NCBI GenBank assembly: GCA_016873165.1
Contig: VGXV01000016.1
Span: 1-64,000, forward strand
Source of the DNA: Planctomycetota bacterium
GTDB taxonomy: Bacteria; Planctomycetota; Brocadiia; Brocadiales; Brocadiaceae
DNA length: 64,000 nucleotides
Reading direction: 5' to 3'
In this document: in pieces, positions 19,932 to 42,230 of the stretch
How the letters are laid out: each line of letters starts with the position of its first letter
Position numbering within the stretch: position 1 is the stretch's first letter
Translations under genes and position numbers: made by a program
Notes under the pieces: model-generated
What the model was told of the DNA's origin: nothing
The model's database searches: none
What the model saw: only the letters and a program-made list of their open reading frames with translations

Positions 19932-20035
19932 GGTGGGGCATTACCCACCAAACGTAGAGACGCATTGCTATGCGTCTCTGCAAGCAGCGTGAAACGGTGG
20001 GCATTGCCCACCCTACAAAAAGTGAAATTCCTTAA
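19932..20035 (+). repeat. Composite dispersed palindromic repeat, copy 1
   Basis: Three inverted repeats in series: GGTGGG/CCCACC (19932-19937, 19944-19949), AGAGACGCAT/ATGCGTCTCT (19956-19965, 19970-19979, four-base loop), and GGTGGGC/GCCCACC (19996-20002, 20006-20012). The unit ends with GAAATTCCTTAA at 20024-20035. The middle stem recurs at 29583-29610, and the end motif recurs at 29502, 31305 (partial) and 57346. It is non-coding and lies downstream of the DUF465 gene. Confidence 0.75.
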
Positions 20036-29501: not shown

Positions 29502-29610
29502 TTAAGGAATTTCAATGCTTCGGCTCCGCTCAGCATGACGTCGTTCTGAGCGGAGTCGGGGAATCAAAGTTTCACGTTGTTTGTAGAGACGCATAGCAAT
29601 GCGTCTCTAC
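29502..29610 (-). repeat. Composite dispersed palindromic repeat, copy 2
   Basis: The unit starts with TTAAGGAATTTC at 29502-29513. A stem CGGCTCCGCTCAG/CTGAGCGGAGTCG (29521-29533, 29546-29558, one G-U-type mismatch) follows. A perfect 12-base stem GTAGAGACGCAT/ATGCGTCTCTAC (29583-29594, 29599-29610, loop AGCA) ends it. It joins modules that occur separately at 19932-20035, 31305-31400 and 42181-42230. It lies between the hybrid kinase and HD-GYP genes. Confidence 0.78.
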
Positions 29611-29618
29611 GTTTAACC

Positions 29619-30816: not shown

Positions 30817-33297
30817 ATGTTTATGAAAATTCTTTCTATCGTAATTTTTTTAAATGTGCTTACAGCAAATATGTTCTGTAACAATGCACCGGCAAAAGAG
30901 GATATTTCGGTATCTGTCAGTGATAAAGATTTTTCTGCGGAAAATTTCTTCGGATTTTCGGGAACGGCCTTTGATAAGGAAAAAGTAAATTTCAACAAAG
31001 GATGGCTTGGTATTTTTATGGAGAACGAGAAGGGCATTTTGGTTATTGAGACGACAAAAGGTTCTCCGGCAGAAATTTCCGGGCTGAAAACAGGAGATAT
31101 CATCACAAAGATTAATGACGAACCTCTCATAGATAATGAGGGAAAAAATTTAATCAAATTCAAGAGTATTATCGAAGCTATGGGCGCGGAAGCCGTTCCG
31201 ACACTGACGGTGGTAAGGGAGAACAATGAAATTGAATGTAAACCAAGGCTCATCGCGAAATTTTTAAAGAAGGTGAAATCTCCTGTAAGACCTCCTATCT
31301 TAACAAGGAATTTCAATGCTTCGACTCCGCTCAGCATGACTCCGCTCATAGATGACTCCGCTCAGATGACGTCATTCCGGGCGGAGTCGAGGAATCAAAG
31401 TGGTAGAATGCCTAAAGAAACAAACATAACTCAAAGCGCTAAAAAAGAATCAGGACAATCATTTCTCCGCTTTGCTATGGAAAGCGAAGAATACAAAAAA
31501 ATGTGCGCCAATACCATTCAGAGAATGGGAGAGGAAGCGTATTCCAGGGAAGGATATCAATCAAATGAAGAATCCAATCCGTTTCGGTTGTCCATAATAG
31601 ATTATTTGTTGCAAAATCCGATGGATACGTATGAAGCCGGAAAAATCATCCACAGCGTTCTTTGTAAAGAAAAGGGTTCCGATCAGATTCAATCGGCGGC
31701 AAAGCTATTGGATGTTGAATTTTCACTAAATGAAGAAGGAGTAAATTCCGGGGGTGATTTACCATCACAGATACAGGGGCTCATTGATGATATTGTTCCG
31801 TGTGTTTCATTTATTAGCGATGCATTTCATACTTTAACAAAGGAAGAGTTTGATTTTTTGTATCAGTCTGCGCAAAAGATATGGATTCCCAATGAAACTA
31901 TTGAACCGTCCGACATTGCCAAAGCGCTGGAATTATCCCAAAAGGTTGATCTTTCAAAATTATTTAAAGCCGCAGCGCTGATGCTCAATAGGATCGAAAG
32001 TCTGAAAAATCAGAAGGATGATCAAGCAGAAACGCATTTGCAGCCGTTCAACATACCAACATCCCTTAAAAACACATCTACCACAGAAACTTCTTCTGAT
32101 AAAGAACCCGGAGAGGGGAGAGGTTATTCCGGTGATGTTTTGCTGGTGCAGGATACAAACATAGGCAAAATTGTTATCGGCGGAACCGGCGCTACATATT
32201 ATTATGATGATGCAGCGGTTATTGTGGATCTCGGAGGAAATGATTATTATTTCAATAACGCAGGGGCATCGGGGAGGGAAATGCCCGTTTCCGTGTGCAT
32301 TGATTTTTCCGGCAGCGACACCTATGATGGGAAAAATCCTTTTTCGCAGGGAACGGGAAGGTTCGGAATCGGCATTCTGAAGGATTTTGAGGGGGATGAT
32401 ACGTATTTGGGGCAAAACTTTGCCCAAGGTTCCTGTCTCTATGGAATAGGAATGGTAATAGATAATGAAGGGGATGATTTCTACAGTGGAAATGCTTTAA
32501 ATATCGGAGTAGGTTTTTTTGGATTGGGGCAACTGGTTGATGTTAATGGAAATGATACATATTTCAGCCGCCAGTATTCACAGGGAGTCGGCTTTACAAA
32601 GGGAATCGGCGTATTGGAGGATGACAACGGAAACGATTTCTATTTTGCAGGCGGAAAATATCCTGATTTCAGGGACCCGGAAAAATCCTTCCAGTCCATG
32701 TCCCAGGGCATTGGCATGGGTATCAGGCCGGAAACTACCATCGTGGGGGCATCAGGAGGCATAGGTGTGCTTATTGATAAAAAAGGCGCTGACAAATACC
32801 ATGGCGACTATTTTTCTCAGGGCAGCGGGTATTATTTTTCAATGGGATTATTGTTTGATACGGAAGGAAGCGATACCTATCATGCCAGCCGTTACGCGCA
32901 AGGCGCGGGAATACATTCGGCAATTGGAATGCTGGCAGACGATGAAGGGGACGACAAATACGAATGCTCTTTTGGTGTTTCACAAGGGTGCGGACATGAT
33001 ACCAGCATCGGGTTTCTTATCGATAACTCAGGGAACGATACCTATTTAAGCGGAGTGGTTTCGCAGGGCGCCGGTATGGAGAGGGGGTTGGGTGTTTTAG
33101 CGGATTTTCAGGGGAATGACATGTACCATGCAAAGGACAGCAGTCAGGGGGTTTCCTTTCCTTCAAAGACAGAAGAAATCATTGGCATTGGCATGTTGCT
33201 TGATAATCAGGGAGAGAGCGATGTTTTTCGGGATGCCATAGAAAAAGATTCCCTTTTTTATCGGGCAAATGGCGGCATTCTATTAAACAAAAAATAA
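30817..33297 (+). CDS. Exported PDZ protein with C-terminal GNDxY repeats
   Basis: An 826-residue protein of unknown function. An N-terminal signal peptide (hydrophobic 4-20) is followed by a PDZ domain (about 58-145: G-W-L-G-I-F, G-S-P-A-E-I-S-G-L-K-T-G-D-I-I). Residues 163-194 are encoded by an in-frame copy of a dispersed DNA repeat. A helical domain spans about 205-400. From about 450 to 815 there are roughly ten imperfect 24-36-residue repeats of the form G-x-G-x-L-x-D-x-x-G-N-D-x-Y ... S-Q-G-x-G. The repeats look like parallel beta-helix turns, with Asp/Asn positions that could bind calcium. The ATG at 30823 is an alternative start. It is probably periplasmic or surface-located. I do not recognise a named family. 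Confidence 0.8.
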   Translation: MFMKILSIVIFLNVLTANMFCNNAPAKEDISVSVSDKDFSAENFFGFSGTAFDKEKVNFNKGWLGIFMENEKGILVIETTKGSPAEISGLKTGDIITKINDEPLIDNEGKNLIKFKSIIEAMGAEAVPTLTVVRENNEIECKPRLIAKFLKKVKSPVRPPILTRNFNASTPLSMTPLIDDSAQMTSFRAESRNQSGRMPKETNITQSAKKESGQSFLRFAMESEEYKKMCANTIQRMGEEAYSREGYQSNEESNPFRLSIIDYLLQNPMDTYEAGKIIHSVLCKEKGSDQIQSAAKLLDVEFSLNEEGVNSGGDLPSQIQGLIDDIVPCVSFISDAFHTLTKEEFDFLYQSAQKIWIPNETIEPSDIAKALELSQKVDLSKLFKAAALMLNRIESLKNQKDDQAETHLQPFNIPTSLKNTSTTETSSDKEPGEGRGYSGDVLLVQDTNIGKIVIGGTGATYYYDDAAVIVDLGGNDYYFNNAGASGREMPVSVCIDFSGSDTYDGKNPFSQGTGRFGIGILKDFEGDDTYLGQNFAQGSCLYGIGMVIDNEGDDFYSGNALNIGVGFFGLGQLVDVNGNDTYFSRQYSQGVGFTKGIGVLEDDNGNDFYFAGGKYPDFRDPEKSFQSMSQGIGMGIRPETTIVGASGGIGVLIDKKGADKYHGDYFSQGSGYYFSMGLLFDTEGSDTYHASRYAQGAGIHSAIGMLADDEGDDKYECSFGVSQGCGHDTSIGFLIDNSGNDTYLSGVVSQGAGMERGLGVLADFQGNDMYHAKDSSQGVSFPSKTEEIIGIGMLLDNQGESDVFRDAIEKDSLFYRANGGILLNKK
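31305..31400 (+). repeat. Dispersed repeat inserted in frame in a coding region, copy 3
   Basis: A 96-base segment begins AAGGAATTTCAATGCTTCG and ends GGAATCAAAG, both shared with the intergenic copy at 29502. The outer stem is CGACTCCGC/GCGGAGTCG (31322-31330, 31381-31389). Between the arms GACTCCGCTCA occurs three times (31323, 31338, 31354). The length is 32 codons exactly, with no stop, so the host ORF stays open. Confidence 0.85.
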
Positions 33298-42180: not shown

Positions 42181-42230
42181 CTTCGACTCCGCTCAGGGTG
42201 ACAGTTTTGCCATACTGAGCGGAGTCGAAG
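42181..42230. repeat. Dispersed palindromic repeat, copy 4 (stem-only form)
   Basis: Perfect 16-base arms CTTCGACTCCGCTCAG (42181-42196) and CTGAGCGGAGTCGAAG (42215-42230) around an 18-base loop. The arms match the CTCCGCTCAG module of the copies at 29521 and 31322, without the TTAAGGAATTTC end. It lies in the 239-base gap between leuD and the flavodiiron gene, where I see nothing else. Confidence 0.85.

Follow-up and report, generated by a model that had tools for sequence, protein, structure and literature searches.

Our data make it very probable that a dispersed palindromic element was inserted into an open frame of a protein gene in a common ancestor of two Kuenenia species, where it lengthened a linker, and that it was subsequently changed by in-frame steps. 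The gene lies in the window, by which we mean the whole stretch of 64,000 nucleotides analysed here. Three Kuenenia genomes are compared throughout, namely those of the window species (G000), of Ca. Kuenenia hertensis (G002) and of a third Kuenenia species (G001), and with three species just one insertion branch can be placed.

Host gene and inserted element

The features of the window to which we refer are:

30817-33297, + strand: host gene, 826 aa, an intact ORF without a stop
~31300-31413, + strand: whole putatively inserted or element-derived DNA including the outer ends, delimited from the consensus and both orthologues, edges uncertain by several bases
31305-31400, + strand: core of the putatively inserted palindromic element, sequence in common with 29504-29570 and other copies and absent from the G001 orthologue
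31318-31340, + strand: left arm GCTTCGACTCCGCTCAGCATGAC, base-paired to the right arm in the hairpin prediction
31324-31338, + strand: tandem unit 1, 15 nt, ACTCCGCTCAGCATG, read as TPLSM, seen in the sequence; two units in the G002 orthologue
31339-31354, + strand: tandem unit 2, 16 nt, seen in the sequence
31355-31368, + strand: tandem unit 3, 14 nt, seen in the sequence
31371-31399, + strand: right arm GTCATTCCGGGCGGAGTCGAGGAATCAAA, the right arm of the subfamily with 1 mismatch
29504-29570, + strand: copy of the same subfamily in the intergenic DNA that separates a sensor-kinase gene from an HD-domain response-regulator gene
42181-42230, + strand: third family copy, a hairpin whose arms are the same but whose flanks differ, not covered by any coding ORF of 80 aa or more

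The encoded protein starts with a hydrophobic N-terminal helix, followed by a PDZ domain, a linker, a helical domain and C-terminal GNDxY-type repeated units. The PDZ domain at residues 43-137 (Pfam, E 6e-7) was the only domain found in a Pfam scan of the protein, and for the GNDxY-type region there was neither a Pfam match nor a PDB fold match. Foldseek likewise matched the PDZ part alone, the targets being DegQ/DegP-type proteins. The AlphaFold2 model (mean pLDDT 62) contains a PDZ-like fold, places the helical domain by its secondary structure at about residues 216-395 and predicts the C-terminal units to be all-beta, with many short strands at regular spacing. Most of the insert falls into residues 167-216, which are of low confidence (pLDDT ~25); since the model was built from 11 sequences only, the disorder of this region is a prediction. 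The insert, which adds about 36 residues with a high content of Ser, Thr, Arg and Asn, is thus predicted to be a disordered stretch that lengthens the linker between the PDZ and the helical domain. The first-pass annotation had regarded the segment as the linker that joins the PDZ domain to the next domain: position and predicted disorder agree with this, but the linker pre-existed and was lengthened.

The kinship of the segment with the non-coding copy, now delimited to 29504-29570, was confirmed, as both begin with AAGGAATTTCAATGCTTCG and end with GGAATCAAAG. Its description as residues 163-194 in exactly 32 codons is right in that there is no stop and the frame is kept, whereas the 96-nt core in fact begins at the third base of codon 163 and ends at the second base of codon 195. 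Nor are these 96 nt the whole insertion, because the outer ends of the element (TTTAAC... and ...AGCCGAAGGCCTAATTTAA) entered the gene along with the core: compared to the empty orthologue, the linker is longer by 36 codons in the window species and by 41 in Ca. K. hertensis. The three copies of GACTCCGCTCA described in the insert are also present (31323, 31338 and 31354) and stem from tandem growth of the 15-nt unit in the gene; they are three of the seven copies of GACTCCGCTCA(G/T) in the window, for which shuffling leads to an expectation of 0.07. Units 2 and 3 (16 and 14 nt) sum to 30 nt, by which the frame is restored. The predicted fold of the insert has at least 14 continuous pairs and is little better than that of shuffled sequences (z -1.75). 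The predicted protein contains the segment NFNASTPLSMTPLIDDSAQMTSFR here.

A dispersed repeat with a single open frame

The element is a dispersed palindromic repeat, a REP or MITE in the broad sense, with many copies, hairpin arms and a mainly intergenic location. Allowing at most one mismatch, the arm TTCGACTCCGCTCAG has 133 matches in G000 (reversed control 0) and 53 in G002, and there are none in the closed genome of G001 with its 4,406,153 bases (controls 0 or 1). The right-arm sequence GTCATTCCGGGCGGAGTCGAGGAATCAAA occurs at four places in G000, seven in G002 and none in G001. Opposed arms were found in 56 G000 copies, and numerous further copies have the same arms and different flanks. 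From copies of G000 and G002 we assembled by eye a 96-nt subfamily consensus (TTTAACGTTTAGGAATTTCAATGCTTCGACTCCGCTCAGCATGACGTCATTCCGAGCGGAGTCGAGGAATCAAAGTAGCCGAAGGCCTAATTTAAA), the arms of which form a hairpin. In its six-frame translation five frames contain stops; frame +1 (LTFRNFNASTPLSMTSFRAESRNQSSRRPNL) alone is open, and this is the frame read in the host gene. Among the 56 two-armed G000 copies, with 18 nt of flank included at either end, 30 have one open frame and 12 have none. The closest intergenic copies follow a simpler consensus and have complete ends. Another dispersed palindrome, GTAGAGACGCATTGCTATGCGTCTCT, is present twice in the window (19950-19995 and 29569-29614), the latter copy directly adjoining the element copy at 29504-29570.

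Copies inside genes are rare. Of 85 element clusters in G000, only the copy at 31305-31400 is internal to an intact, well-scoring long ORF, with short low-scoring ORFs over other copies counted as spurious; one further cluster (C43:7241) is located where a truncated SBBP gene ends. The internal cases among the 42 clusters of G002 are the host-gene orthologue and one SBBP gene, besides two probable wrong gene starts. In this SBBP gene a half element, which reads SHSMTSFRAESRNLI in the same frame as in the host gene, sits in a variable loop that is short in the paralogues. Element copies at gene starts (two loci; 373-aa ORF C1:86135-87253) were considered as insertions and rejected, wrong start codons being more likely. 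For short dispersed repeats in general, 7 of 234 intervals lay inside coding ORFs in a 0.7-Mb sample of G000 with a coding fraction of 0.68, a sample biased by including stretches around the elements; among these seven are one with plain protein homology and one probable wrong start.

Presence and absence of the insert in Kuenenia

Some kind of match to the host gene was detected in 41 of 59 relatives, 25 of which have strong orthologues (E <=1e-146); orthologues are found throughout the family. The orthologue of Ca. K. hertensis holds this insert as well, at an identical codon position and with recognisable outer element ends on both sides, whereas the linker of the G001 orthologue is uninterrupted and has no insert; short linkers are also found in several other genera. 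Orthology is backed on one side each, by the kinase and response-regulator neighbours in G001 and by the downstream gene in G002. In Ca. K. hertensis (G002:C7) the upstream HD-domain response-regulator gene is a short remnant beside other repeat sequence, while it is whole in G001 and in the window.

Synonymous divergence is 0.50 (Ks) between G000 and G002 and reaches 0.84 and 0.95 towards G001. Because of this greater divergence G001 is the outgroup, and as its site is empty, the insertion is therefore placed on the branch leading to G000 and G002. Over 821 codons, G000 and G002 differ by a Ka of 0.096 and a Ks of 0.495, and this low Ka relative to Ks indicates that purifying selection acts on the host gene in the two species; inside the insert, the same ratio is weak with 30 codons. 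An intact host gene with the insert together with an orthologue lacking it makes this an in-frame intragenic palindromic insertion. The first-pass annotation had named ways to examine its insertion reading, and those that compare orthologues speak for it: i) among related genomes, the G001 orthologue from the same genus lacks the segment and its genome lacks the repeat and ii) in the orthologue carrying the segment, that of Ca. K. hertensis, the DNA does show similarity to the repeat. Genome-wide, one of the 85 clusters of G000 is inside an intact coding gene, in the sole open frame of the consensus. At the level of sequence comparison, the insertion reading is thus supported.

Changes after insertion

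The 15-nt unit (ACTCCGCTCAGCATG) is in tandem in both species, with two units in G002 and three in the window. Only G002 has an extra 21 nt (CCCGCCTACCGGACAGGCAGG) within the right half of the insert. This 21-mer is itself dispersed (seven places in G002, six in G000, none in G001, control 0), and the difference is a second dispersed palindrome nested in the insert of Ca. K. hertensis. The window copy has lost 9 nt at its right end compared to G002. Between the two inserts, the length differences hence amount to 15, 21 and 9 nt, each a multiple of three; assuming one independent event each, the chance of this is about 1/27, which is modest evidence for translation of the insert.

Repeats in other linkers and variable regions

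The same linker contains CCCCCTTCGCAAGGGGG in a genome of the Ca. Brocadia lineage (G022), where the hairpin core is present at nine places (control 0); this is suggestive of a repeat in the same linker, the core being short and generic. A 33-nt hairpin in a second Ca. Brocadia linker was not counted as a dispersed repeat, as it had one extra copy in one genome. The linker peptide HSAQNDD of G008 looks like a decayed repeat.

In Kuenenia, the variable regions of SBBP-type proteins (G000:C43:7207-8310; G002:C29) contain several different palindromic repeats in frame, for example IQPPLSPFFKGD, SPLTKGGRGVV, CPPLAGVGGGLR and SHSMTSFRAESRN. SBBP proteins of both G001 and G002 contain a C-rich repeat in frame, and so does a primase-like ORF of G002 (G002:C25:71196). 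This ORF has a DUF927 domain, and the dispersed repeat separates its CHC2 zinc finger from its Toprim domain. A 281-aa ORF (G000:C2:68370-69212) has an in-frame array of C-rich hairpin repeats near its C-terminus (PEPTPDPSQEGNLKKGTSQEGN...).

Discussion

The history we propose starts in the last shared ancestor of the window species and Ca. Kuenenia hertensis, when a palindromic element of the REP or MITE type, non-autonomous and about 96 nt long with internal variants, entered an exported protein in the linker behind its PDZ domain. Of the six frames of the element it landed in the one that is open, and because of this the protein was not cut short. Later in-frame steps were the tandem growth of the 15-nt unit that encodes TPLSM, the nesting of a 21-nt palindrome in Ca. 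K. hertensis and a loss at the right end in the window species, with the protein staying under purifying selection throughout.

The element was presumably mobilised in trans, by a transposase that may belong to the Y1/HUH type. There are 13 Y1-transposase (PF01797) matches in G000; at the 10 of these loci that were read, no element was present in the flanks, which gives no support for a RAYT link. Nor do the aligned copies have the GTAG or CGTC that RAYT-associated REPs conserve at the 5' foot of the hairpin; GTAG is present in some copies only, in the outer right flank. The ends of the element are short and AT-rich (TTTAAC/TTTAAA), and no clear target-site duplication is readable because the flanks have diverged.

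The opposite direction, that the repeat arose in the host gene and was then copied to intergenic places, would account for a gene copy common to both repeat-carrying species. However, the G001 gene with its short linker demonstrates that the linker was present without any repeat, and the derived features of the gene copies, namely additional 15-nt units, the nested 21-mer and the loss at the right end, are missing elsewhere, the closest intergenic copies being simpler and complete-ended, which renders such an origin extremely improbable. A class of elements specialised for genes, like the RPE of Rickettsia, is hardly more credible: one frame is open throughout and is used in both genes found, but an element directed to genes is difficult to reconcile with a single copy of 85 inside an intact coding gene in G000 and one more ending a truncated gene, or with 7 of 234 short-repeat intervals in coding ORFs despite a coding fraction of 0.68 in the 0.7-Mb sample, and the intergenic bias largely refutes it. 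Beyond the fact that the window genome is a draft, nothing speaks for chance similarity or an assembly error, and the likelihood of these is negligible, as the controls gave 0 and an independently assembled genome shares the insert with a different inner structure; controls and two independent assemblies already refute them.

More weight, while still unlikely, has the idea that the insert was selected as beneficial, either by lengthening the linker or by forming an mRNA hairpin that acts on decay or translation. It would fit with the retention of the insert in two species, with the predicted hairpin and with the variation of the same linker in length and composition between genera, often with C-rich hairpin sequence in Ca. 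Brocadia. On the other hand, the hairpin fold barely beats shuffled sequences, and the interior of the insert has been free to change as tolerated sequence would be. Along with the ancestral insertion that we favour, we infer that the lengthening of the linker is tolerated, not beneficial.

Palindromes in frame within genes are already established, and the Kuenenia case is an added example with an unusually clear history. The RPE of Rickettsia are palindromes of about 100 nt, both intergenic and intragenic in frame, where they add 30-50 residues (Ogata et al. 2000, reviewed in PMC2229807); intragenic insertions were found in 19 genes (cited in PMC2229807). The element described here resembles them in its length and in lying between genes as well as in frame in an intact protein gene, but differs in lineage and presumably in sequence, and its copies are nearly all intergenic. 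The RPE comparison drawn in the first-pass annotation hence holds as an analogy only, and its restriction to a few lineages was too narrow, as more are known (PMC3733652, PMC2229807). REPs of the GTAG and CGTC superfamilies are also mostly intergenic with few in-frame intragenic cases (in Opitutus, Thauera, Xanthomonas and others; PMC3733652), and different REPs at about the same recB site in two Xanthomonas species (PMC3733652) resemble the shared linker site. In contrast to these, the Kuenenia element has no conserved GTAG/CGTC foot tag and no element-flanked tyrosine transposase gene among the loci read, and its host is an anammox bacterium, a group that is not among the REP hosts of PMC3733652. 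The enterobacterial RU/ERIC and the Neisseria Correia/NEMIS elements are small palindromic elements fused in frame to ORFs (PMC2759123, PMC2229807). Ours is similarly a small, mobile-like palindrome with an open frame that would be fused to a host protein; its sequence is unrelated, and a target-site duplication is known for theirs. A literature search on anammox bacteria and REPs, covering few subscription papers, found nothing relevant.

In this context, the repeat and the nested repeat in the Kuenenia linker, the hairpin in the same linker of G022 and at least two repeat families in SBBP variable regions raise the tentative idea, which we regard as possible rather than probable, that unrelated palindromic repeats land again and again in the linkers of large proteins exported by anammox bacteria and are thereby a standing source of new linker sequence. 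The case at hand is cleanly placed with respect to empty site, branch, frame and later changes, and illustrates how selfish-looking DNA may turn into protein sequence in anammox bacteria, a group for which we found no earlier report. Such insertions would survive rarely, with one intact internal case among 85 copies, and the suggested rule is that those in linkers of exported proteins may be the ones to survive.
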